A stretch of 64,000 nt of DNA, taken from assembly GCA_015231795.1 (NCBI GenBank), contig JADGAX010000002.1, positions 124,001 to 188,000 on the forward strand, written 5' to 3'. A program made the position numbers and the translations under genes. The DNA comes from Alphaproteobacteria bacterium. Lineage in GTDB: Bacteria > Pseudomonadota > Alphaproteobacteria > Rhodospirillales > WMHbin7. Positions 1,906 to 12,342 of the stretch are shown in pieces; position 1 is the first letter of the stretch; every line of letters begins with the position of its first letter. Below the pieces are notes generated by a model. That model worked only from the letters and a program-made list of their open reading frames with translations. It ran no database searches and was not told the origin of the DNA.

Positions 1906-3801
1906 ATGCAAGTCCCAGATCAAATTTTAAGTGTCCTGAGCCAGGACGCCTTTCCCCAAGACCCTTGCGACCGCCTCGTCCTGGCCTCGTCGAGCGAAGA
2001 GTTGACGGACCTTGATCCCCGCCAGCCAGGGCTGGTTGTTTTCATCACGGATTGGCTGGGTTGGTTGACATGGCGGCAAAATGGCGGCCAAGCCGTTCAT
2101 TACGAGAGTTATCTGTCCGAATGGCCGCAGGAGCTAGGTCCGCAGGAAAGTTTCCAACAGCGCGCCGTGACCTGGATGTATGACGACGGCACGGACGCGA
2201 CGCTGTTCGAGGGCGTCTCGCTGGGCAAGCAATTCAACTGGGAAGTGACCGGCGTTCGCTTGGCGGCTGGGCGAATACTGTTTTCATTGTCGCAGGCGAT
2301 TCAGCGAATGCAACCTCGCGAGATTGAGTATCGGGGCTTGAGGGCAGAATACGCATTCCTTGACGATTCCACACTTTTCGATCTGGCGAGCGCGGCGGCT
2401 GAACGCAAGAGCATGGCCTTGACTGATCGCAGAAGCCAAACAAGCGCTTTGCGCCGTCTTGATCCAGAACTGCCTTTCAATGGCGAGTTTTCGCCGCCGT
2501 CCCTGTCGCGTCGATTGACGCTACGCATGACGGAGCTGGTCACTGACGCCTTCTCTCGCCTATTTGGTCTCTTGCGCGGCCCAGCGCCGCGAATTTTCAT
2601 TTTGCACAATTTGCTGGTCGTCAAGAGCCTGATTGAGCATCTGCCTGTCGGCCAGGCGATCCCGGTTCTTGTCGCCAGAATTCATCCCAAGCGCCCTTCC
2701 TTTTTGATCGACGCTTGGCGCAAGGGCGTGCGGTTGGTGGCGCTTCCCTCGTTGTCGTTGGGTCCTCAGGCCAGACAGAGGCTAGAGGAAATTCGCGGAT
2801 GGATTGCCAAAGTCGCTGAGCGCGCAAATGCTTCGCCAGAGGATCGGGCCGTCAACGACTACCTGCGCCGTCATCTGATTTCCACTTCGACTCTTGAGGC
2901 CAAGGCCCATGAGGTCCTGCAGTTCAAGCGCCTGTTCGAAGCCGAACGGCCTTCGCGCATTCTGGTCGGCGACAGCGAGAACCATATGGTACGCATGGCC
3001 TGTGAGGTGGCGCAGGGGCTTGGCATCGGCGTTGACGAACTGCCCAACGGCATGTTCCTGACCGCCCAGCGCATGGACAGTCGTTCGGGCGATGGCGTGC
3101 GCGGCCCGGTGATCGATCGCTTTCTTGCCTGGGGCGAGGCCAATTTGCGCTGGGCCAAGCGTTCGAAGGTTGGCGTTGCAACGCTGCCCACAGGATATCC
3201 GGTGGCGGACAGTTTGCTGAATTGTCCAGCACCTGCTGCAACAGGATCGGGGCGCGCTCTTATTTTGCCGCTGCATGTGGACAAGACGGATCTGTGCGGA
3301 CTGTACAGCGAAGTGTTCGTCAATCTTGTTCGCGCCGTTCAAGCAGCGAGGGACGCAGGCTATGGCGACATCCGCATCAAGGTGCATCCCGGCTTCATCA
3401 ATCTCGACTATTACCAAGAAGTTGCGAAGCGCTTTGGCCTTGACGCGCTTGTCTTCAAGGATGGCTCATTGCTGCCTCACATCGAATGGGCGGATATCGT
3501 GATCGGACCCGTCAATTCCGGCGCCATGATCGAGGCGGCTGCTCTTGGCAGACCCTATCTTTCCGTGCTGAACCCACCCACCGCCATCGATCCCGATTTG
3601 ACCCTGCCCGCCAGACCCATTCTACCAAGCCAGATTGCCGATTCCTTAAGAAGCAGAAGCTATTGCAATCCTAAAAGCATTTTATCAGACATTGCTGGTT
3701 GCCAAGAAGACAGACCGAGCGGACACCGTGTTTGGCAGGCCGTGCTGAAGGGGAACGGAAAGAAGACCACATCCCTCTCACCACACTGTGAGGCCGCCTG
3801 A
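1906..3801 (+). CDS. Large surface-carbohydrate protein, GT-B/capsule-transferase-like C-terminus
   Basis: A 631-residue soluble protein whose N-terminal 250 residues I do not recognise. The C-terminal half has the look of a GT-B or CDP-glycerol-transferase-type fold: GRALILPLHVDKTD, IRIKVHPGF, and an acceptor/donor-site-like stretch IGPVNSGAMIEAAALGRPYLSV near residues 525-550, where such enzymes carry a Ser/Gly-rich loop and a conserved Glu. The likely role is a glycosyl- or glycerophosphotransferase in polysaccharide assembly. Proteins at 24221 and 39606 have a comparable C-terminal architecture. The stop codon lies inside a GC-rich hairpin, and the following gap (70 bases) is the longest inside the operon. 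Confidence 0.55.
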   Translation: MQVPDQILSVLSQDAFPQDPCDRLVLASSSEELTDLDPRQPGLVVFITDWLGWLTWRQNGGQAVHYESYLSEWPQELGPQESFQQRAVTWMYDDGTDATLFEGVSLGKQFNWEVTGVRLAAGRILFSLSQAIQRMQPREIEYRGLRAEYAFLDDSTLFDLASAAAERKSMALTDRRSQTSALRRLDPELPFNGEFSPPSLSRRLTLRMTELVTDAFSRLFGLLRGPAPRIFILHNLLVVKSLIEHLPVGQAIPVLVARIHPKRPSFLIDAWRKGVRLVALPSLSLGPQARQRLEEIRGWIAKVAERANASPEDRAVNDYLRRHLISTSTLEAKAHEVLQFKRLFEAERPSRILVGDSENHMVRMACEVAQGLGIGVDELPNGMFLTAQRMDSRSGDGVRGPVIDRFLAWGEANLRWAKRSKVGVATLPTGYPVADSLLNCPAPAATGSGRALILPLHVDKTDLCGLYSEVFVNLVRAVQAARDAGYGDIRIKVHPGFINLDYYQEVAKRFGLDALVFKDGSLLPHIEWADIVIGPVNSGAMIEAAALGRPYLSVLNPPTAIDPDLTLPARPILPSQIADSLRSRSYCNPKSILSDIAGCQEDRPSGHRVWQAVLKGNGKKTTSLSPHCEAA

Positions 3802-4880: not shown

Positions 4881-6557
4881 ATGTCGATATTCAAGAAACT
4901 TCTTTTGCGGGCAATCTATAGCCTGATCGGCTATCTGATTGCCAAACGCGATGCCCGCAGCTCATCCGCGAAGTGGTTTCCCAACTGTTTCGGAAAAAAT
5001 TTCCTATACAGCCCACTGTTTCCTCAAGCCGATGGCAAGGCTTATTGGGCGAAGTATCATGCCGAAAAGCTGGATAATCCGCTGACCGTAAACTTCAAGC
5101 GCTTCAAGGCGGATATCTTAAAGGGTCAGCTCTGTTGTGCGGGGAGCTGGCACGAATTGAACATTGATGTTCCGTCAGCGCTGCCATATGCCGTTACGGG
5201 CGTCCCCATTCATCAACTTGATCGCGAATATGAGGCGTTGCTCCGCTGCAGCGGCAGTACGATGAGGTTGGGCGGCTTGGCGGCTGATCGGTTCTATTAC
5301 CTGCCCATTCGTGAACCCGGTGAAGTCGCCCTGAAATCCGATCATAATTTGATCGTCGCCGAAGCTATCCCACTTCAACAGAAGAAGAAGCACCCTCTTC
5401 GCATGGTGATGACGGTTTTCATCGACAATTTCGGCTGGGACGTCCTTCACCACATCGATGTCGAAACATCACTTCCTAACATTTCCCGCTTTTTCTCGAA
5501 GGGGGCGGTTTTCGAGAACTGTTACAGCGCCTCGAACTGGACCCTGGCCGGCGTGGGATCCATCGTCTCCGGCAAGCTGTTGTCCTCGCACAATATGTTT
5601 CACTTTTCAAAAGACGACGTCCTTTTGGGAGACGGCTACAAGGTGTTGCCGGAATATTTTCAAGAGGACGGTTATCTAACGTTCCAGGTTTGCGGCAACA
5701 CACGCAAGTCGCCAGGGTACCGTTACGTCAAAGGGTATGACCGGACTGTCTATCGCAATGAAATGCCGCTATGCGAGAGTCTGGATGTTCTGTACGACCA
5801 TGTTCGCGCCTTTCCAGAACGCGATCATTTTGTTTGGCTTACGATTATGGACGCCCATCACACGCTGGCCGCCGAACCTGACGTTGCCAACCAACTTCAA
5901 GCGCATCTAATGGCGCAAGATTACGCCCGGCCCAAGGGAAAGTCTCCGATGCAGCTGGGATTCGATGCGCCTGTCCTTGCCCGATATGTCGAGGAATTGA
6001 AGCGGATCGATTTTCATCTAGGCATGCTCTTTTCCTTTCTTGAGGAACGCTACAGCGACGATGACATGGTTGTGGCGCTGGTCAGCGATCATGGCCCCGG
6101 ATGCCTTAGCAACGACCCTCACCCCCTTGCGCACCAGAAAACACATGTGGCTTATATGTTGCGTGGGCGGGGCGTTTCACCTGGGCGCATTCAAGAAATC
6201 ACCCATGTAACTGATATCTTGCCATCCTTGCTGAAGCTGGCCAGTTTGCCGCCGGCCAGTTCCATTGACGGGCGGCTCCCGGTAGCCTTGGGGGGAAATG
6301 AAGCCCGCAGTTTCGCAACGGCAGAGATAAAATATGCCGGGCTTCCCTACGAGGCGTCGATTAAGGATGCCGAGTTCGAGTTCTACCTGAAGACAAAGGC
6401 CCGCGTTGACGATAAGGGAAATGTCGATATCGCCGACCATGATGTTGAACTGTTCCCCAAGCTCGATTGGTCACGCGATGTAATTGCGGACCATCCAGAA
6501 TTGGCCGCAGGCTACACGGCACATGTTGCAAGCATTTTGGGTCAAAGCCGGTCATGA
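4881..6557 (+). CDS. Sulfatase/alkaline-phosphatase-fold enzyme with Thr at the nucleophile position
   Basis: A 558-residue protein with a short hydrophobic N-terminal segment (about residues 7-20), an uncharacterised 150-residue region, then a sulfatase-fold domain from about residue 175. Metal ligands are recognisable: Asp182 in FIDNFGWD, the DHG of VSDHGPG, and His in HPLAHQKTH. The catalytic position reads S-N-W-T (Thr221) instead of the C/S-x-P-S-R of true sulfatases. This resembles phosphoethanolamine or phosphoglycerol transferases, which use Thr. It may add or remove a phosphate-linked or sulfate group on the glycan; the chemistry is not settled by sequence. It sits 19 bases after the radical SAM gene. 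Confidence 0.7.
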   Translation: MSIFKKLLLRAIYSLIGYLIAKRDARSSSAKWFPNCFGKNFLYSPLFPQADGKAYWAKYHAEKLDNPLTVNFKRFKADILKGQLCCAGSWHELNIDVPSALPYAVTGVPIHQLDREYEALLRCSGSTMRLGGLAADRFYYLPIREPGEVALKSDHNLIVAEAIPLQQKKKHPLRMVMTVFIDNFGWDVLHHIDVETSLPNISRFFSKGAVFENCYSASNWTLAGVGSIVSGKLLSSHNMFHFSKDDVLLGDGYKVLPEYFQEDGYLTFQVCGNTRKSPGYRYVKGYDRTVYRNEMPLCESLDVLYDHVRAFPERDHFVWLTIMDAHHTLAAEPDVANQLQAHLMAQDYARPKGKSPMQLGFDAPVLARYVEELKRIDFHLGMLFSFLEERYSDDDMVVALVSDHGPGCLSNDPHPLAHQKTHVAYMLRGRGVSPGRIQEITHVTDILPSLLKLASLPPASSIDGRLPVALGGNEARSFATAEIKYAGLPYEASIKDAEFEFYLKTKARVDDKGNVDIADHDVELFPKLDWSRDVIADHPELAAGYTAHVASILGQSRS

Positions 6558-6585
6558 CTGCTTATTTTTCTGTCTGCGGCACATC

Positions 6586-7833
6586 ATGAACGACACCGAG
6601 CTTCTGCGCTTCTTGCTGGCGACAGTGGCGCTGCTGGGTTCGGCACATTTCACTGGATATCTTTTCCAGCGTTTTGGGCTTCCAAGAGTCGTCGGCGAGA
6701 TTTGCGGAGGCATTGTTCTTGGCAAGACGGGCCTGGGCTATGCCCTGCCAGACATACACGCTTGGTTGTTCGATGGCTTCGATGCCGAACCCAAACTTCT
6801 TGCCGCCTTTTATTGGCTTGGCCTCATTCTTCTGATGTTTACTTCGGGCTTCACCATGGAAAGTGGAAGGGCACGAACGAATTTGCGCTTGGTCGTGATT
6901 CTTGTGATTGGCTCAACCAGCCTGCCCTTCCTGGCCGGTTGGCTGGCAACGACAAGCGTTGATTTCTCTCCCTACCAAGGTTCGGCCAACAATGCCGCGG
7001 CACTTTCTTTGGTCGTAGCAATCGCCGTGGCCGTTACTTCGATACCTGTCATCTCACGCATATTTCTTGACCTTGGCATTGCCACCACTTCATTTGCTCG
7101 AAATGTTCTGGCAACAGCCGTCGCGCATGACATTATTTTGTGGGGTGTGCTGGCGGTGGCTACCAGCCTTGTCAGCGCTGGTTCAACTGACGGCTGGGCC
7201 ATCGTCTTCACCATTGTCAAAACCGTTGTCTTCTTCAGCCTTTCCATCTGGATCGGGCCGCGCCTTCTAGACTATCTGACCCGCTCACGCTACAACCTTG
7301 TCCGGAAAGGTTCGCCAATCGGCTGGGTTCTGATTATTTGCTTTCTGCTAGCGGCCCTGGCTAGCATCCTAAATGTCAACGTTATATTCGGAGCGCTTAT
7401 AGCAGGACTGCTATTCGGTTTGGCGCGCCACCCGGATATCGAGACTGTTCGCAGCCGGATCAGCGATTTTTCCTTTGCTTTCTTCGTGCCGTTCTATTTT
7501 GCCATGGTCGGCATGAAGCTTGACCTGATTGCCGAGTTCGACCCTCTCTTCACTTTGGCGTTCATCCTTTTCTGCACAGCCTGCCAAATGCTTGCGACCG
7601 TGGCCAGCGCTAAGCTGGCGCGGCGAGGCTGGGCTGAAGCATTTGATCTGGGCGTGGCGATGAATGCGCGCGGCGGCCCTGGCATCGTTCTCGCAACGGT
7701 CGCCCTGGAGTTTGGCATCATCAACGGCGTATTTTACACCACCCTGATTCTTCTGGCGATTTTGACTTCGCTTGCCGCTGGGTCTTGGTTCCGTCGCCAG
7801 TTGGTCTGCAATCGCCCCCCGCACCTCTACTAG
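6586..7833 (+). CDS. Kef/CPA2-type monovalent cation:proton antiporter
   Basis: A 415-residue, roughly 12-helix inner-membrane protein of the Na+/H+ or K+/H+ exchanger superfamily. Family signatures include FGLPRVVGEICGGIVLGKTGLG in the first helices, LILLMFTSGFTME, the AIAVAVTSIPVISRI discontinuous-helix segment, and an acidic residue in AVAHDIILW. No cytoplasmic TrkA-N/RCK domain follows the membrane part. I chose ATG 6586 (MNDTELLRFLL); a longer open frame to 6484 overlaps the upstream gene and gives an untypical N-terminus. An antiporter is unusual inside a glycan operon. It might manage charge or ions linked to export or sulfate use, but nothing in the sequence shows this. Confidence 0.85.
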   Translation: MNDTELLRFLLATVALLGSAHFTGYLFQRFGLPRVVGEICGGIVLGKTGLGYALPDIHAWLFDGFDAEPKLLAAFYWLGLILLMFTSGFTMESGRARTNLRLVVILVIGSTSLPFLAGWLATTSVDFSPYQGSANNAAALSLVVAIAVAVTSIPVISRIFLDLGIATTSFARNVLATAVAHDIILWGVLAVATSLVSAGSTDGWAIVFTIVKTVVFFSLSIWIGPRLLDYLTRSRYNLVRKGSPIGWVLIICFLLAALASILNVNVIFGALIAGLLFGLARHPDIETVRSRISDFSFAFFVPFYFAMVGMKLDLIAEFDPLFTLAFILFCTACQMLATVASAKLARRGWAEAFDLGVAMNARGGPGIVLATVALEFGIINGVFYTTLILLAILTSLAAGSWFRRQLVCNRPPHLY

Positions 7834-7845
7834 GGAAGTAATGGT

Positions 7846-9987
7846 ATGAGCACCGAAATACTGTGCACCTTAGGACCGGCCTCGATGAACGAACGCATCA
7901 TATCGCGCCTCGAGCATTTGGGCGTGTCGCTGTTTCGGGTCAATCTTTCGCATACAAAATTGGAAGACGTTGAATCAGTCATTCGGTTCATCCAAAGCCA
8001 CACCTCGGTTCCCGTTTGCCTTGACACTGAGGGTGCCCAGATACGCACGACGGCCTTAGTGGACGGACAAGTGACCTTGCGTGAGAACACCATGGTCACC
8101 TTGCACTCGCGGCTAGTTCCTGGCGATTCGTACAATATCGGCTTTTATCCACCCTCAACGATAGCGGAGTTGCAGGCTGGGGATTTTATCAGCATCGACT
8201 TTAATGCGGTGCTGGTTCAGGTCGTCGAGCCGGGACTTGAACGGGTCGCCGTTCGAATTGTCAGTGGCGGACAAATTGGTTCGAACAAGGCCGTCACGGT
8301 ACACCGACCAATTTTGATGCCAGTTCTTACAGACAAGGACAAGGCAGCCATCGCCATCGGACGACGCTTGGGCATACGACATGTGGCGCTTTCCTTCGCC
8401 AACCGGGCGGATGACGTGGATGAGGTTCGCAACCTGACCGGAGACGCATTCATCATATCGAAGATCGAATGCCGCAACGGCCTAGACAATCTGCGGGCCA
8501 TAGCGCAAAAGTCTGATGCAATCCTGATCGACCGCGGAGACTTGTCGCGGGAAATTCCCATTGAACGCATTCCATCGGCTCAGAAATACATCATCCGCAC
8601 AACCAAGGAAATTGGCCGCAAGGTTTACGTTGCAACAAACCTTCTGGAAACCATGGTTTCATCGCCGCTTCCTACGAGGGCGGAGGTAAACGATATCTTC
8701 AACACCTTGCAAGACGGTGCGGACGGCCTGGTTCTTGCCGCAGAAACAGCTGTCGGCAAATATCCGATCAACTGTGCCGCCATGGTGGTTAAGTTGCAAC
8801 GAGAGTTCAGCGAGGAAACCAAGGGTTTGCCGACGTCGGAAGTTTTCTCGCTGCTTCCGTCTCCGCATGGCGGAACTCTCAACATTGCCCTGTCCGGCGA
8901 GGAAGATAAGAACAGCATTCATGATTTGCGTCGAATTGCTGTCCCGGAGACCACTTTGAGGGATGCAGAACAAATCGCTCTTGGCGTCTATTCTCCTTTG
9001 TCAGGCTTTATGAATCGCGAAGAGCTTGAGGGCGTGCTGTCAAATTTCAGACTGCCTGACGGCGCAATCTGGACGATGCCGATTATTCTGCAACTGCCAC
9101 TCGGGCAAAGAAGTGTCTCGACGGGTGATCGCGTGGCGCTGACATCCGATTCTGGCGCCATCCACACCGTCATGGACGTTTCAGAGACGTTTGTGATGGA
9201 TCTGCACAAGCTGGCCGAGCGTTGGTTTGCAACCGATTCGCCCAAGCATCCGGGCGTGGCGCGCCTGCTTTCAGGAAGCGACGTCATGGTTGCCGGTAAA
9301 GTGCGGCTTTTTCAAAAATTGCCTTCGCCATGGCGGGCTTACGAGCTAACGCCCGAGCAGTGCCGTTTTATCTTTACGCAAAAGGGCTGGACACGGGTGG
9401 TCGGCTTCCACGGTCGCAATGTTCCGCATCGGGCGCATGAGCACATTCAGCAAGCGGCTCTTGACCTAACCCACGCCGACGGTCTTTTCATTAGCCCCGT
9501 CGTCGGGCCGCGCAAAAGCGGCGATTTCTTGCCGTCAGCCATTCTTAAGGCCTATGAGGCGCTGCTGGAATTCGGGATCTACCCCAAGGATCGCGCGGTG
9601 CTTGGCGCCTTTGCCAGCTACCCACGCTTTTCCGGCCCGCGCGAGGCGGTCTTTACCGCACTTTGCCGCAAGAATATGGGCTGTAGCCACTTCATCATCG
9701 GACGCGACCATGCGGGCGTCGGAAGTTTCTACGGCCCCAGCGACAACCGTCGTCTTTTCGAGAGTCTGGACGATCTAGGTATCGAACCGGTGTTTTTCGA
9801 TCCCATTGGTTGGGATGTCGAGGCCAACGCCTATACCACTTCACCTAATGCGCTCTCAATTAGCGGAACAGAGGTCCGCATGGCTTTTTCCTCGGGTCAA
9901 CCGCTCCCCAATTGGGCGATACGACCGATCGTGCAGGATGCGCTTAGGGCCGAAGTTGCTTTGGGTCGGGAGCTGTTTGAGCCGTGA
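7846..9987 (+). CDS. Fusion protein: pyruvate kinase (A/B domains) + ATP sulfurylase
   Basis: Residues 1-325 are a pyruvate kinase barrel with B domain. Seen are CTLGPAS, the Arg31/Asn33/Ser35/His36 site (FRVNLSH), DTEGAQIRT (60-68; the usual Lys62 is Glu), KIE (206-208), RGDL (230-233), ATNLLETM with Thr264, and ETAVGKYP. The allosteric C domain is absent. Residues about 360-713 are a complete ATP sulfurylase: SPLSGFMN, GRNVPHRAHEH (523-533), GPRKSGD, RFSGPRE (594-600), GRDHAG (619-624) and ISGTEVR. The second half makes APS and pyrophosphate from ATP and sulfate. The kinase half could make ATP from PEP and ADP, including the ADP released by the APS kinase encoded next (4-base overlap). AGGGAAG lies well placed before ATG 7846. 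Domain calls are firm; the coupling idea is inference. Confidence 0.9.
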   Translation: MSTEILCTLGPASMNERIISRLEHLGVSLFRVNLSHTKLEDVESVIRFIQSHTSVPVCLDTEGAQIRTTALVDGQVTLRENTMVTLHSRLVPGDSYNIGFYPPSTIAELQAGDFISIDFNAVLVQVVEPGLERVAVRIVSGGQIGSNKAVTVHRPILMPVLTDKDKAAIAIGRRLGIRHVALSFANRADDVDEVRNLTGDAFIISKIECRNGLDNLRAIAQKSDAILIDRGDLSREIPIERIPSAQKYIIRTTKEIGRKVYVATNLLETMVSSPLPTRAEVNDIFNTLQDGADGLVLAAETAVGKYPINCAAMVVKLQREFSEETKGLPTSEVFSLLPSPHGGTLNIALSGEEDKNSIHDLRRIAVPETTLRDAEQIALGVYSPLSGFMNREELEGVLSNFRLPDGAIWTMPIILQLPLGQRSVSTGDRVALTSDSGAIHTVMDVSETFVMDLHKLAERWFATDSPKHPGVARLLSGSDVMVAGKVRLFQKLPSPWRAYELTPEQCRFIFTQKGWTRVVGFHGRNVPHRAHEHIQQAALDLTHADGLFISPVVGPRKSGDFLPSAILKAYEALLEFGIYPKDRAVLGAFASYPRFSGPREAVFTALCRKNMGCSHFIIGRDHAGVGSFYGPSDNRRLFESLDDLGIEPVFFDPIGWDVEANAYTTSPNALSISGTEVRMAFSSGQPLPNWAIRPIVQDALRAEVALGRELFEP

Positions 9988-10520
9988 GCGAAAGAGGATT
10001 GGTATTCTGGTTCACCGGTTTGTCAGGAGCTGGGAAGTCCACGGTGGCGCAATTGTCGAAGACAAGGCTTTGCGAATGCGGAATTTCCACGCTGGTGTTG
10101 GATGGCGACGATCTGCGCGCCGCAATTAGCCGCGATCTTGGTTTCGACAGGGAGAGCGTACGAGAAAACAACCGGCGAGTTGCCACTTATTGCGCAGAAC
10201 GCCGATGGGACGCCAATGCCGTTCTCGTGCCGATAATATCGCCTTTCGAATCAGATCGCGCCATGGTCCGCGAAATATTGGAACCAGGTTTCTTCGAGAT
10301 TTGGTTGGCGGCCGATATCAAGGCTGTTGTGACCCGCGACCCAAAGGGGCTTTATGCCAAGGCCAGATCCGGTGAAATTACCAACATGATCGGCTACGCG
10401 CCCGATTATCCCTACGAAGCGCCAAAGCGCGCCGACCTAGTAATCCAAAGCGATCAAGAGGAACCAGAAGTTTCGGCAGGAAAGCTGACGGCCTTTATCC
10501 TGGAAAGGTGCAAGACATGA
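9984..10520 (+). CDS. cysC: Adenylylsulfate (APS) kinase
   Basis: A 178-residue APS kinase that phosphorylates APS to PAPS with ATP. It shows the P-loop GLSGAGKST (12-20), DGDDLR (40-45), the RENNRR segment corresponding to the REENIRR lid motif, RDPKGLYAKA, and DYPYEAP near the substrate loop, in the normal order and at normal length. GTG 9984 overlaps the stop of the ATP sulfurylase fusion by 4 bases, so the two products are almost certainly made together, as in CysC/Sat or PAPS-synthetase pairs. PAPS would serve sulfotransferases or a PAPS reductase; neither is recognisable in this window. Confidence 0.95.
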   Translation: MSERGLVFWFTGLSGAGKSTVAQLSKTRLCECGISTLVLDGDDLRAAISRDLGFDRESVRENNRRVATYCAERRWDANAVLVPIISPFESDRAMVREILEPGFFEIWLAADIKAVVTRDPKGLYAKARSGEITNMIGYAPDYPYEAPKRADLVIQSDQEEPEVSAGKLTAFILERCKT

Positions 10521-10542: not shown

Positions 10543-12342
10543 ATGCTGAGATCGCTAGCCCAACTTTATGCGTTGTTCAACGGTCAAACACGCCGTCGAC
10601 TGCTAATGCTCTTTTTGGCCATGCTGCTTGGTGGACTGTTGGAAATGGGAGGCATCGGCCTGATCCTTCCGTTCCTGCAAGCCATTGTGCAGCCCGAGAA
10701 GTTGATTCAATTGTCGGGTAAAATTGGTATGGCGGAGTTTTTGGCAGAAATTGAGCCGCCGGCGCTGATAGTAGGACTCGCCTTGGTTCTGTTCGCGTTC
10801 TACTTTGTGAAAAACGTTTATTTGTATCTGCTGAATCGCTATTCCCTGTTCGTGACGTTTCAAGCCGAGGAGGCAATGAAGCTGCGCTTGCTTGGCGCTT
10901 ACCTCGCCCTGCCCTATGCCGAGCGCTTGACTTACAATACCGCGCAGTTTTCCCGGACCATCATTCATTCGACCCACGTCGTCTGTAAAGGCTCCTTGAA
11001 CGCAATGCTGATCCTGGCCATGGAGGGAATTCTTGCCCTGGCGGCGGTTTCTGTGCTGCTGCTAGCTGCGCCGGTTGGCGGGCTTGCTTCTGGCATATTG
11101 CTGCTGGCCTTGATGGCAGGTCTTTATCTTCCTTTGCGACGCAAGCTGGCGAATGGCGGACATGAAGCCAATCAACAGCAAGCGAAGATTTTTCTGTGGT
11201 TGAATCAAAGTTTTGGCGCCGTCAAGGAAACCATTCTCCTCAAGCGCGAAGCATTTTTTCTGGATCGATTCGGACACGAGACCGGTCGACTGGCGCAGAT
11301 CATGGCGCGCAATCAAAGCATGATGCAGTTACCGCGCTTCATCGCCGAATTGGTCGTGCTCGGCGCCATTCTGGCCTATCTGGCCAGTTCGGTCGTCGTC
11401 AATCCTCAAGGCCTGGAAGACGCTTTGCCGATTCTGGGCGTTATCGCCGCTGCTGCTCTGCGCCTGCTACCTTCGGCAACCCGCATTGTGACCCAGCTGA
11501 ACACTATTCGCCATGGAAGCTCTGCTTTGACGGCCGTCAGCGACGATATAGGGAAGCTGCCAAGCAGGGCGAAAATTGCGTCTGGCGGGGAAGGCGATAA
11601 AGTGACTTTTCAGTTCCGAATCCAACTGGAAGGCGTGGGCTTTCGCTATCCCGCCACTTCTGACAACGCCTTGAGCGACATTGAATTCTCCATTACTCGC
11701 GGCGAGGCCGTCGCGTTGGTAGGGCCTTCGGGATCTGGCAAGACAACTCTGGCAGATATCGTTCTTGGCCTGCTTTCGCCCAGCGCAGGACGCATTCTGG
11801 TAGACGGCAAGGACATTCAAGGCGATCTTAATGGCTGGCAGGACAAATTAGGTTACGTTCCTCAGCACATTTACCTGCTGGACGACACTGTGTTTCGCAA
11901 CGTGGCCTTCGCCCTGCGCGACGAGGAGATTGACCCTGAACTCGTAAGAACGGCGCTGGCCAAAGTGCGCCTCCTGGAATATTTCGAGGGTCTGCCCGAT
12001 GGCCTTGAGACGAGGCTGGGCGAGCACGGATCACGCCTTTCGGGCGGGCAGCGTCAGCGCATCGGCATCGCACGCGCGCTTTACCACAATCCAGATCTGC
12101 TTGTTTTCGACGAGGCGACCAGCGCCCTGGACAGCGGCACAGAGCGTGACGTTATTGAAGCCATCGACGCCCTGCGCGGCACGATGACTATGATCGTCAT
12201 CGCGCACCGCATGAGTACCGTGCGCCATTGTGATCGCATCGTTGTGCTTGACAAAGGCCGCATCGAACTAATTGGGACTTATGACGAGCTTCAGGCGGCC
12301 AGTCCATTGTTTCAGAACTTGACCCAGCAACCGGCGGCCTAG
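10543..12342 (+). CDS. ABC transporter, fused membrane and ATPase domains (MsbA/PglK-like flippase)
   Basis: A 599-residue half-transporter. Residues 1-330 carry about six membrane helices (for example LLMLFLAMLLGG, ALIVGLALVLFAFYFV). The C-terminal ATPase has Walker A GPSGSGKTT, Q-loop VPQHIYLLDD, signature LSGGQRQRIGIARAL, Walker B LLVFDEATSALD and the H-loop His in VIAHRMS. Homodimers of this type flip lipid A core, undecaprenyl-PP-oligosaccharides (PglK) or peptides. In a glycan locus without a recognisable Wzx, it is the best candidate for moving the lipid-linked glycan across the inner membrane; that role is inferred. Confidence 0.88.
   Translation: MLRSLAQLYALFNGQTRRRLLMLFLAMLLGGLLEMGGIGLILPFLQAIVQPEKLIQLSGKIGMAEFLAEIEPPALIVGLALVLFAFYFVKNVYLYLLNRYSLFVTFQAEEAMKLRLLGAYLALPYAERLTYNTAQFSRTIIHSTHVVCKGSLNAMLILAMEGILALAAVSVLLLAAPVGGLASGILLLALMAGLYLPLRRKLANGGHEANQQQAKIFLWLNQSFGAVKETILLKREAFFLDRFGHETGRLAQIMARNQSMMQLPRFIAELVVLGAILAYLASSVVVNPQGLEDALPILGVIAAAALRLLPSATRIVTQLNTIRHGSSALTAVSDDIGKLPSRAKIASGGEGDKVTFQFRIQLEGVGFRYPATSDNALSDIEFSITRGEAVALVGPSGSGKTTLADIVLGLLSPSAGRILVDGKDIQGDLNGWQDKLGYVPQHIYLLDDTVFRNVAFALRDEEIDPELVRTALAKVRLLEYFEGLPDGLETRLGEHGSRLSGGQRQRIGIARALYHNPDLLVFDEATSALDSGTERDVIEAIDALRGTMTMIVIAHRMSTVRHCDRIVVLDKGRIELIGTYDELQAASPLFQNLTQQPAA

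Follow-up and report, generated by a model that had tools for sequence, protein, structure and literature searches.

The window analysed here is a stretch of 64,000 nucleotides from Alphaproteobacteria bacterium (order Rhodospirillales; assembly GCA_015231795.1, contig JADGAX010000002.1, positions 124,001 to 188,000 of the forward strand). It contains a single 713-residue frame, in which a pyruvate kinase (PK) barrel is followed by a whole ATP sulfurylase and which overlaps the next gene, coding for an APS kinase (CysC), by 4 bases. The features of the locus are reported in Table 1.

Table 1. Features of the PK–ATP sulfurylase locus (positions in the window; Pfam scores of the window proteins).
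Position (strand)	Feature	Residues	Evidence and remarks
7846..9987 (+)	PK–ATP sulfurylase fusion gene	713 aa	Domain search, homologous loci, predicted structure
7849..8772 (+)	Pyruvate kinase barrel with B domain, no C domain listed	2-309	PF00224, E 6e-67, 226 bits against a cut-off of 30; catalytic positions; structure comparison
8860..9315 (+)	PUA_2 domain, N-terminal part of ATP sulfurylase	339-490	PF14306, E 4e-37, 128 bits against 27
9337..9948 (+)	ATP sulfurylase catalytic domain, motifs HGRNVPHRAH, GRDHAG, ISGTEVR	498-701	PF01747, E 4e-62, 210 bits against 24.3; solved relatives
9984..10520 (+)	APS kinase (CysC), 178 aa	4-155	APS_kinase, E 2e-43; TIGR00455, 160 bits against 139; the only clear APS kinase found in the host genome (a weak match, E 8.5e-4, lies inside a 594-aa frame)
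6484..7833 (+)	CPA2-type cation/proton antiporter, recurrent partner gene		PF00999; listed from a TTG, likely start ATG at 6586 (by eye); homologue within 1.5 kb in 14 of 75 fusion loci
10543..12342 (+)	ABC exporter/flippase-like gene downstream of cysC		PF00005; homologue within 4 kb in 14 of 75 loci
4881..6557 (+)	Sulfatase-fold protein in the same gene run (transferase or hydrolase)		PF00884; phmmer homologue in only 2 of 75 loci

Structure and conservation of the fusion protein

The observation made in the initial annotation, i.e., a PK catalytic core without the C domain fused to a full ATP sulfurylase and overlapping cysC inside a glycan operon, was confirmed. All the residues that it named (R31, N33, S35, K206, E208, D232, T264, and E62) are present. 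As for the glycan operon, the WbuX and NeuC models pass their cut-offs, whereas a PseF-like frame is below its own. Moreover, the AlphaFold model of the protein (mean pLDDT 90.5) matches solved ATP sulfurylases over residues 336-713 (8a8g, Z 48.9, 1.8 A) and pyruvate kinases over residues 1-329 (best Z 37.7).

The possibility that the frame is an assembly artefact joining two genes had been set as a test of the observation; thus, we checked the presence of the fusion in other genomes. Twelve out of 297 genomes of the order, the window's own included, match both halves, two of them being cut short (165-713 and 1-654). Furthermore, 90 of 93 further loci examined carry the full fusion, 83 of these 90 being distinct; they are distributed across many phyla and include Mesorhizobium amorphae CCNWGS0123, titled as a complete genome (locus L066 of our set), and two rhizobial plasmid records titled as complete sequences (L035 and L036). 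In this search, the best 80 of 202 relatives were retained; three partial loci (L041, L087, and L123) and exact-core duplicates were left out.

In the PK half, R31, N33, H36, D60, R67, K206, E208, and T264 are kept in 84 of 84 rows, and S35 and D232 in 83. The nine catalytic positions checked (rabbit R72, N74, S76, D112, R119, K269, E271, D295, and T327) are all present in the window protein, and only one row of 84 deviates (L128, D232E), accepting an Ala at S35 in one row. On the other hand, the full-length model TIGR01064, which includes the C domain, scored 264 bits against a cut-off of 306, with a match ending at profile position 339 of 476.

The PK half belongs to a branch separate from 16 ordinary PKs (SH-aLRT 100, quick tree) and harbors a private signature (DxEGAQ, LIDRGDLSR, ATN), with the invariant residues A64, Q65, D229, R235, and N265 lying around the hinge and the PEP loop. 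The ordinary PKs used for this comparison are nearly all of the Lys117 type, so that the signature was set against Glu117-type PKs only through the solved sequences. Neither the K+-dependent (T113/K114/E117/T120) nor the K+-independent (L113/Q114/K117) signature was recovered, the 43 PK-like rows having mostly T/S, E, Q, and T/N at these positions; the two signatures cover 80% and 77% of their respective clusters, not all (PMC8835810).

The sulfurylase half scored below the cut-offs of TIGR00339 (276 against 323 bits) and PRK04149 (343 against 387 bits). Of the catalytic motifs QxRN, HxxH, and GRDH, the window protein has HGRN, HRAH, and GRDHAG, the Q of QxRN being H in 77 of 84 rows. Its checked catalytic positions are changed more often than those of the PK half, in 15 against 1 of 84 rows, five of the 15 by D621N alone; the PK, therefore, cannot serve only the fused sulfurylase.

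Genomic context of the fusion and of standalone copies

The neighborhoods were analyzed in 75 fusion loci below 90% identity (8 loci at 90% or more were excluded). An APS-kinase homologue lies within 1.5 kb in 38 of them and a sulfotransferase in 32, and 59 of 75 have one or the other within 4 kb. The hits per 100 kb in successive 2-kb steps are 13.6, 0, 1.7, and 0 for APS kinase and 12.1, 0.8, 1.7, and 0.9 for sulfotransferase. As a further control, 16 ordinary-PK loci showed no CysC or sulfotransferase hit, although this control is weak since they hold only about 1.4 to 4 kb each; the fall with distance is the better one.

A Pfam search of the neighboring genes, based on our own gene calls, gave APS_kinase in 33, Sulfotransfer_1 in 12, and Sulfotransfer_3 in 11 of 69 nearest downstream genes, and Sulfotransfer_3 in 10 of 66 nearest upstream and 13 of 68 second downstream genes. 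These counts leave out neighbors over 800 or under 90 aa, one short upstream neighbor (L084, 90 aa), and the whole set of 66 second-upstream genes. One locus (L145) encodes a 1069-aa frame with the architecture Sulfotransfer_3–PK–PUA_2–ATP-sulfurylase.

The same PK also occurs alone: 7 of 14 standalone copies sit beside an APS-kinase homologue without sulfurylase, and one beside a separate sulfurylase (L147). The standalone rows form one clade (SH-aLRT 92) drawn inside the fusions, but this is a quick tree without bootstrap, whose deep forks do not decide whether the fusion or the PK came first.

Not all the data fit a simple story. Sixteen of 75 loci, some on short contigs, have neither CysC nor sulfotransferase within 4 kb, and L099, L107, L124, and L128, which are among the rows with changed sulfurylase positions, sit beside a sulfotransferase with no CysC near. 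The glycan genes of the window are rare around other fusions, with homologues of its NeuB in 7, PseF in 7, WbuX in 4, and NeuC in 3 of 75 loci.

Concerning the host, no match to Sulfotransfer_1 or Sulfotransfer_3, the two families searched, was retrieved from the genome, which also counts against a simple story. Within the window, no sulfotransferase was found with 11 seed sequences, with a motif scan (patterns not validated on known enzymes) of the first 80 residues of frames of 150 aa or more, or among 10 further proteins scanned with Pfam, a scan that did not cover every window gene. A 369-aa gene after cysC in locus L038 looks like a sulfotransferase by eye, but it matched no Pfam model and no other locus of the set or window frame.

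The host genome also harbors a separate, ordinary PK (494-aa frame) and a separate Sat (399-aa frame), which rules out that the fusion is the housekeeping PK or Sat of this organism. That Sat passes TIGR00339 and lies beside Hdr/Qmo-like genes that are below their model cut-offs; hence, it may be dissimilatory. No PF01507 match (CysH/CysD family) was found in the genome, so PAPS is unlikely to serve the usual assimilatory reduction leading to cysteine through CysH.

A possible PAPS-making module with its own ATP supply

These data suggest that the locus is most likely a PAPS-making module for sulfation. In the explanation that we favor, with moderate confidence, the fusion and CysC are dedicated to sulfating a surface glycan: the sulfurylase would make APS from ATP and sulfate, CysC would phosphorylate APS to PAPS leaving ADP, and the PK-like domain would turn that ADP back to ATP with PEP. 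This, in turn, would supply the next round, pull the APS kinase step, and clear the ADP that locks APS kinase in its E·ADP·APS dead-end complex (PMC3734648). The fusion, the gene linkage, and the conservation of the catalytic residues are shown by the sequences, whereas the rest is inferred: PK activity and a glycan as the acceptor are both likely, and the recycling of ADP as the purpose of the domain is somewhat more likely than not. It must be considered that the host has an ordinary PK, so that bulk ADP could be recycled anyway, and that ADP recycling has no obvious local source at the four loci with a sulfotransferase but no CysC.

The interpretation given in the initial annotation was only partly supported. 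It had proposed that a PEP-driven kinase next to APS kinase could recycle ADP and pull the sulfurylase reaction, replacing the GTPase (CysN) or the pyrophosphatase pull. PK, sulfurylase, and APS kinase form a recurrent predicted functional unit, and the persistence of PK and an APS-kinase homologue together without sulfurylase is what ADP recycling predicts. However, PK cannot replace a pyrophosphatase, because it does not act on PPi. The annotation had also warned that Glu62, in place of the usual Lys, left kinase activity not guaranteed. This worry weakens, since the position lies in a loop between the A and B domains, E is conserved there in 81 of 84 rows, and K114Q rabbit PK keeps full kcat with Km about doubled (PMC8835810), although Lys to Glu was not among the mutants that we saw in that work.

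Among the alternatives, the PK-like domain might catalyze a new reaction in sulfonucleotide metabolism, using PEP or ATP with another acceptor (APS, PAP, or a sugar or nucleotide of the sulfation pathway) instead of plain ADP. Its separate branch, its private invariant positions, with D229 next to the R-G-D catalytic loop, and its persistence beside sulfotransferases where the sulfurylase half is degenerate (L099, L107, L124, and L128) leave room for another substrate. However, this appears unlikely, as the classical phosphotransfer and metal residues are kept, as expected for PEP-to-ADP transfer; moreover, Gln at position 117 occurs in a Crenarchaeal PK branch whose characterized members (with Ser, Arg, or Val there) work without K+ (PMC4374775).

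It is about as unlikely that the domain is a sensor or scaffold that binds PEP or ADP and gates or clusters sulfurylase, APS kinase, and sulfotransferase with little or no catalysis. Fusion and gene linkage would suit a scaffold, and the fungal APS-kinase domain of ATP sulfurylase is regulatory rather than catalytic (PMC2275785), but the near-perfect conservation of catalytic residues over many phyla, also in the 14 standalone copies, is not expected of a non-catalytic domain.

A glycolytic isozyme fused by chance, with no link to sulfation, is very improbable. The PK half is the only PF00224 match in 8 of 33 host genomes, whose completeness is not given, so there it might also serve glycolysis; the other 25 have another PF00224 match (in one, genome G720, a 21-bit fragment below the cut-off). 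In addition, standalone relatives keep the link to an APS-kinase homologue, a triple fusion with a sulfotransferase exists, and the neighborhood counts are far above those of the distant flank, which refutes this reading. We also considered a MeOPN-type CDP-phosphoramidate pathway, whose kinase is a CysC homologue, because of CysC-like kinases with GPTSxGKT P-loops; it was not supported, since rhizobial copies of that kinase lie beside fusions with an intact sulfurylase. Lastly, nothing was found in favor of an assembly artefact, which is refuted by the 83 further distinct loci.

It remains possible, although tentative, that a previously undescribed PK subfamily is dedicated to sulfation across bacteria, occurring as fusion, split pair, or triple fusion with sulfotransferase, and that its private active-site residues either discriminate ADP from the look-alike APS or catalyze a new PEP-dependent step on a sulfonucleotide.

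Comparison with known sulfate-activating systems

We found no paper describing this fusion. PAPS synthesis is energetically uphill, and the known solutions pull on PPi or use GTP; a PEP-fuelled version encoded in one protein would be a further solution. It would give a ready-made enzyme for making sulfated sugars and a gene marker for unrecognised sulfated glycans in rhizobia, Planctomycetes, Patescibacteria, and others. Since the NCBI models for full pyruvate kinase and sulfurylase do not reach their curated cut-offs on it, the protein is easily misnamed.

The closest systems are the ATP sulfurylase–inorganic pyrophosphatase fusions, with or without APS kinase, of diatoms, an oomycete, and haptophytes, in which a thermodynamic helper enzyme is likewise fused to ATP sulfurylase to pull sulfate activation (PMC2275785; PMC3734648). 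There, the helper removes PPi; here, it is a PK that would act on the ADP of the next step, in bacteria and mostly in sulfation neighborhoods. The bifunctional PAPS synthases (PRK05537) hold together the same two chemical steps, but in our case APS kinase is a separate adjacent gene and the fused partner is a PK; the window protein scores 221 against the PRK05537 cut-off of 669. In the CysDN/CysNC system, sulfate activation is energetically helped by a second enzyme on the complex, a GTPase, and the sulfurylase belongs to an unrelated family; a GTPase-type sulfate-activating class is mentioned in PMC3734648. The present fusion has no GTPase, and the host shows no PF01507 match.

Ordinary pyruvate kinases (PykA/PykF) share the barrel, the B domain, and the catalytic residues, the best solved sequence match being 7oo1, the second PK isozyme of Pseudomonas aeruginosa; they differ from the PK half in the C domain, the private signature, and the branch. 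Finally, enzyme cascades that make PAPS in vitro combine sulfurylase, APS kinase, and an ATP-regenerating kinase; those are man-made mixtures, whereas here the corresponding predicted components are encoded in one protein plus its neighbor.

Domain structure and distribution of the fusion

The window holds a 713-residue frame followed, with a 4-base overlap, by a 178-residue APS kinase; the Pfam domains of this frame and the other features located in this work are reported in the table. The observation of the initial annotation, i.e., a pyruvate kinase (PK) joined in one frame to an ATP sulfurylase, holds, and the residues that it named are correct. An AlphaFold model of the window protein, built from an alignment of 30 window and locus sequences, has a mean pLDDT of 90.5 and a pTM of 0.80. 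Solved ATP sulfurylases align with this model over residues 336-713 (8a8g, Z 48.9, rmsd 1.8, 370 residues) and solved PKs over about residues 1-329 (9hib, Z 37.7, rmsd 3.2, 324 residues).

Features located in the window and at related loci (L, examined locus; G000, the genome of the window's host)
Record	Position	Feature	Remarks
Window	7846-9987	PK–ATP sulfurylase fusion frame	713 residues
Window	residues 2-309 of the fusion	PK barrel	Pfam
Window	residues 339-490 of the fusion	PUA_2	Pfam
Window	residues 498-701 of the fusion	ATP-sulfurylase	Pfam
Window		APS kinase	178 residues
Window	4881-6557	Sulfatase-fold protein	PF00884
Window	6484-7833	CPA2-type antiporter
L028 (standalone PK locus)	2691-3338	HAD-type hydrolase	near a PK-like gene
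L103	11065-11643	HAD-type hydrolase	near a PK-like gene
L062	6914-7846	FlbT-type flagellar gene beside the closest relative of the fusion	relative 70% identical to the fusion
L038	10720-11829	Gene after cysC with sulfotransferase-like motifs by eye	369 aa; no Pfam match
G000 C1, L061	3474-9682	Second Sat of the host together with the Hdr/Qmo-like genes beside it
L059	7746-9355	Sulfurylase without PK, directly after an APS-kinase homologue

In order to check how widespread the fusion is, 297 genomes of the same order were searched; 25 of them match at E 1e-70 or better, of which 12 match both halves (the window's own included, two others cut short), 11 match the PK half only, and 2 the sulfurylase half only. 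The other four genomes of the same family searched (three of the same genus, completeness 81 to 99) matched the halves only apart, so the fusion is an accessory trait. A scan of the genome collection returned 202 relatives, and the best 80 of these were retained. Of 93 loci examined for a complete fusion, 90 have one, and, together with the window, 84 distinct rows were aligned. According to the titles of their records, these sequences come from Alpha-, Beta-, and Gammaproteobacteria, Verrucomicrobia, Omnitrophota, Chloroflexi, Planctomycetes, Actinomycetes, Gemmatimonadetes, Nitrospina, Acidobacteria, Elusimicrobia, KSB1, Bdellovibrio relatives, and Patescibacteria. Many are MAGs, but isolates occur too (Mesorhizobium amorphae, with a complete genome, Sinorhizobium saheli, Methyloversatilis universalis, Thauera sp. 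2A1, and Salsipaludibacter albus). One Chloroflexota, one Planctomycetota, and one Actinomycetota copy form a clade with an SH-aLRT of 100, which suggests horizontal transfer.

A separate branch of pyruvate kinases

Standalone proteins of 329-360 residues share the PK half. In a quick tree of 59 rows, the fusions (29) and the standalone copies (14) are parted from 16 ordinary PKs by a long branch with an SH-aLRT of 100. The classical catalytic residues are shared by both groups; on the other hand, A64, Q65, D229, S234, R235, N265, and A298 are invariant in all 43 PK-like rows and position 62 is E in 42 of them, while the 16 ordinary PKs carry other residues at these places (one of 16 shares A298). 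Those ordinary PKs are nearly all of the Lys117 type; the solved E. coli enzyme reads DTKGPEIRT and ARGDLGVE at the same places. In the 84 fusions, position 62 is E in 81 and Q in 3. Part of this pattern is explained by the literature: positions 114-118 are a loop between the A and B domains, and rabbit K114Q keeps its kcat (690-805 against 691-703 per second) with a Km about doubled (PMC8835810); Crenarchaeal PKs with Ser, Gln, and others at 117 form a branch whose characterised members work without K+ (PMC4374775). These data suggest that the domain is likely an active phosphotransferase, as inferred from sequence alone, but with an unusual hinge and PEP loop.

Gene neighbourhoods, split genes and a triple fusion

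The neighbourhood was analysed after reducing 83 loci to 75 under 90% identity. An APS-kinase homologue lies within 1.5 kb in 38 of them, a sulfotransferase in 32, a CPA2 antiporter in 14, and a TauE/SafE-type transporter in 5; 59 of 75 have an APS kinase or a sulfotransferase within 4 kb, and 16 have neither. The hits per 100 kb in successive 2-kb steps are 13.6, 0, 1.7, and 0 for APS kinase and 12.1, 0.8, 1.7, and 0.9 for sulfotransferase. Since the sulfotransferase set was grown by iterative phmmer from 11 seeds chosen by eye, it was checked with Pfam on genes called by a codon-score script of our own, which misses some genes: APS_kinase was found in 33 of 69 nearest downstream genes, and Sulfotransfer_3 in 11 of 69 nearest downstream, 10 of 66 nearest upstream, and 13 of 68 second downstream genes. 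The gene after cysC in L038 may represent an unrecognised sulfotransferase family.

The CPA2-type antiporter was not found further out in the flanks, and its role, if any, in sulfation might perhaps be ion balance or anion transport. TauE/SafE-type transporters also lie beside the PK-like genes of the standalone loci L049, L050, and L051 (with a Pfam match in L049 and L051, and by eye only, without a Pfam match, in L050), possibly for sulfate or sulfite transport. The HAD-type hydrolases of the two distant loci L028 and L103 are alike by eye, and they might remove PAP or another phosphate. The flagellar gene in L062 hints at flagellin glycan sulfation. The other glycan genes of the window are not general partners of the fusion, homologues of NeuB being found in 7, of PseF in 7, of WbuX in 4, of NeuC in 3, and of the sulfatase-fold gene in 2 of 75 loci. 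By eye, the last protein has Thr where sulfatases carry the Cys/Ser that is turned into formylglycine, and it may be a transferase rather than a sulfatase. In L059, the sulfurylase lies in a cluster with NeuB-, WbuX-, and radical-SAM-like genes similar to the window's, i.e., the same kind of cluster with the ordinary arrangement.

The APS-kinase homologues are mainly of the GLSG type or (in rhizobia and beside most standalone PKs) of the GPTSxGKT type, with a GLPCSGKST type upstream in Nitrospina. Two GPTSxGKT-type proteins that were scanned score just under the TIGR00455 cut-off (133 and 129 against 139), so their substrate is less sure.

Concerning the organization of the genes, one 1069-residue frame (locus L145) reads Sulfotransfer_3, PK, PUA_2, and ATP-sulfurylase; it is a single case, in a bin labelled KSB1 of 10.3 Mb, which may be mixed. 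In L147, a standalone PK is followed after 112 bases by a standalone sulfurylase. In 7 of 14 standalone loci (L028, L048, L050, L052, L057, L058, and L154), the PK sits next to an APS-kinase homologue with no sulfurylase seen beside it, although the kinase frame of L058 is only 100 aa and L028 is a 3.6-kb contig. Of the rest, L049, L053, and L055 show neither gene next to the PK, L051 and L054 lie at a contig edge, though on the upstream side, and L056 has a Sulfotransfer_3 match, barely over its cut-off, two genes downstream. These arrangements tie the PK to PAPS synthesis and use, not merely to the sulfurylase.

Hosts, possible mechanism and related systems

Other data do not fit a simple scenario. 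Seven sulfurylase positions (R524, N525, H528, H531, R620, D621, and H622) were checked in the 84 rows; 69 keep all of them and 15 do not, and in five of the 15 only D621 is changed to N. Among nine PK positions (A also accepted at S35), only one row (L128, D232E) deviates. Several degenerate sulfurylases sit beside a sulfotransferase with no APS kinase near, so there the PK has no obvious local ADP source. In the window's own genome (completeness 100, 23 contigs), we found one clear APS kinase, which is the one described here (a second match, at E 8.5e-4, lies in a 594-aa frame), no PF01507, and no Sulfotransfer_1 or Sulfotransfer_3. PAPS is unlikely to serve the usual assimilatory reduction in this organism, although these searches did not identify its user.

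In 33 host genomes, whose completeness is not given, the fusion is the only PF00224 match in 8, and there is a single PF01747 match, that of the fusion, in 27. The window's host has a separate PK and a separate Sat, and the genes adjacent to the latter suggest dissimilatory sulfur metabolism.

The most likely mechanism is that the sulfurylase makes APS, CysC makes PAPS and ADP, and the PK-like domain returns ADP to ATP with PEP. APS kinase is inhibited through an E·ADP·APS dead-end complex and sulfurylase by APS (PMC3734648), so local removal of ADP would help both steps. While the fusion, the conservation of its residues, and the neighbourhood are read directly from the sequences, the kinase activity is inferred from them, and the benefit of ADP removal is likewise an inference. 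The interpretation of the initial annotation, according to which a PEP-driven kinase next to the APS kinase could recycle ADP and replace the GTPase (CysN) or pyrophosphatase pull, is partly supported, since ADP recycling remains the most likely reading but PK does not touch PPi, so the pyrophosphatase pull is still needed. The alternative that we take most seriously is a new acceptor for the PK-like domain.

Full-text literature searches, with little coverage of subscription papers and none of preprints, listed no paper that, by its title or the start of its abstract, describes this fusion. The nearest described arrangement is the sulfurylase–pyrophosphatase fusion of stramenopiles and haptophytes (PMC2275785); in the present protein, the partner of the sulfurylase is a PK.
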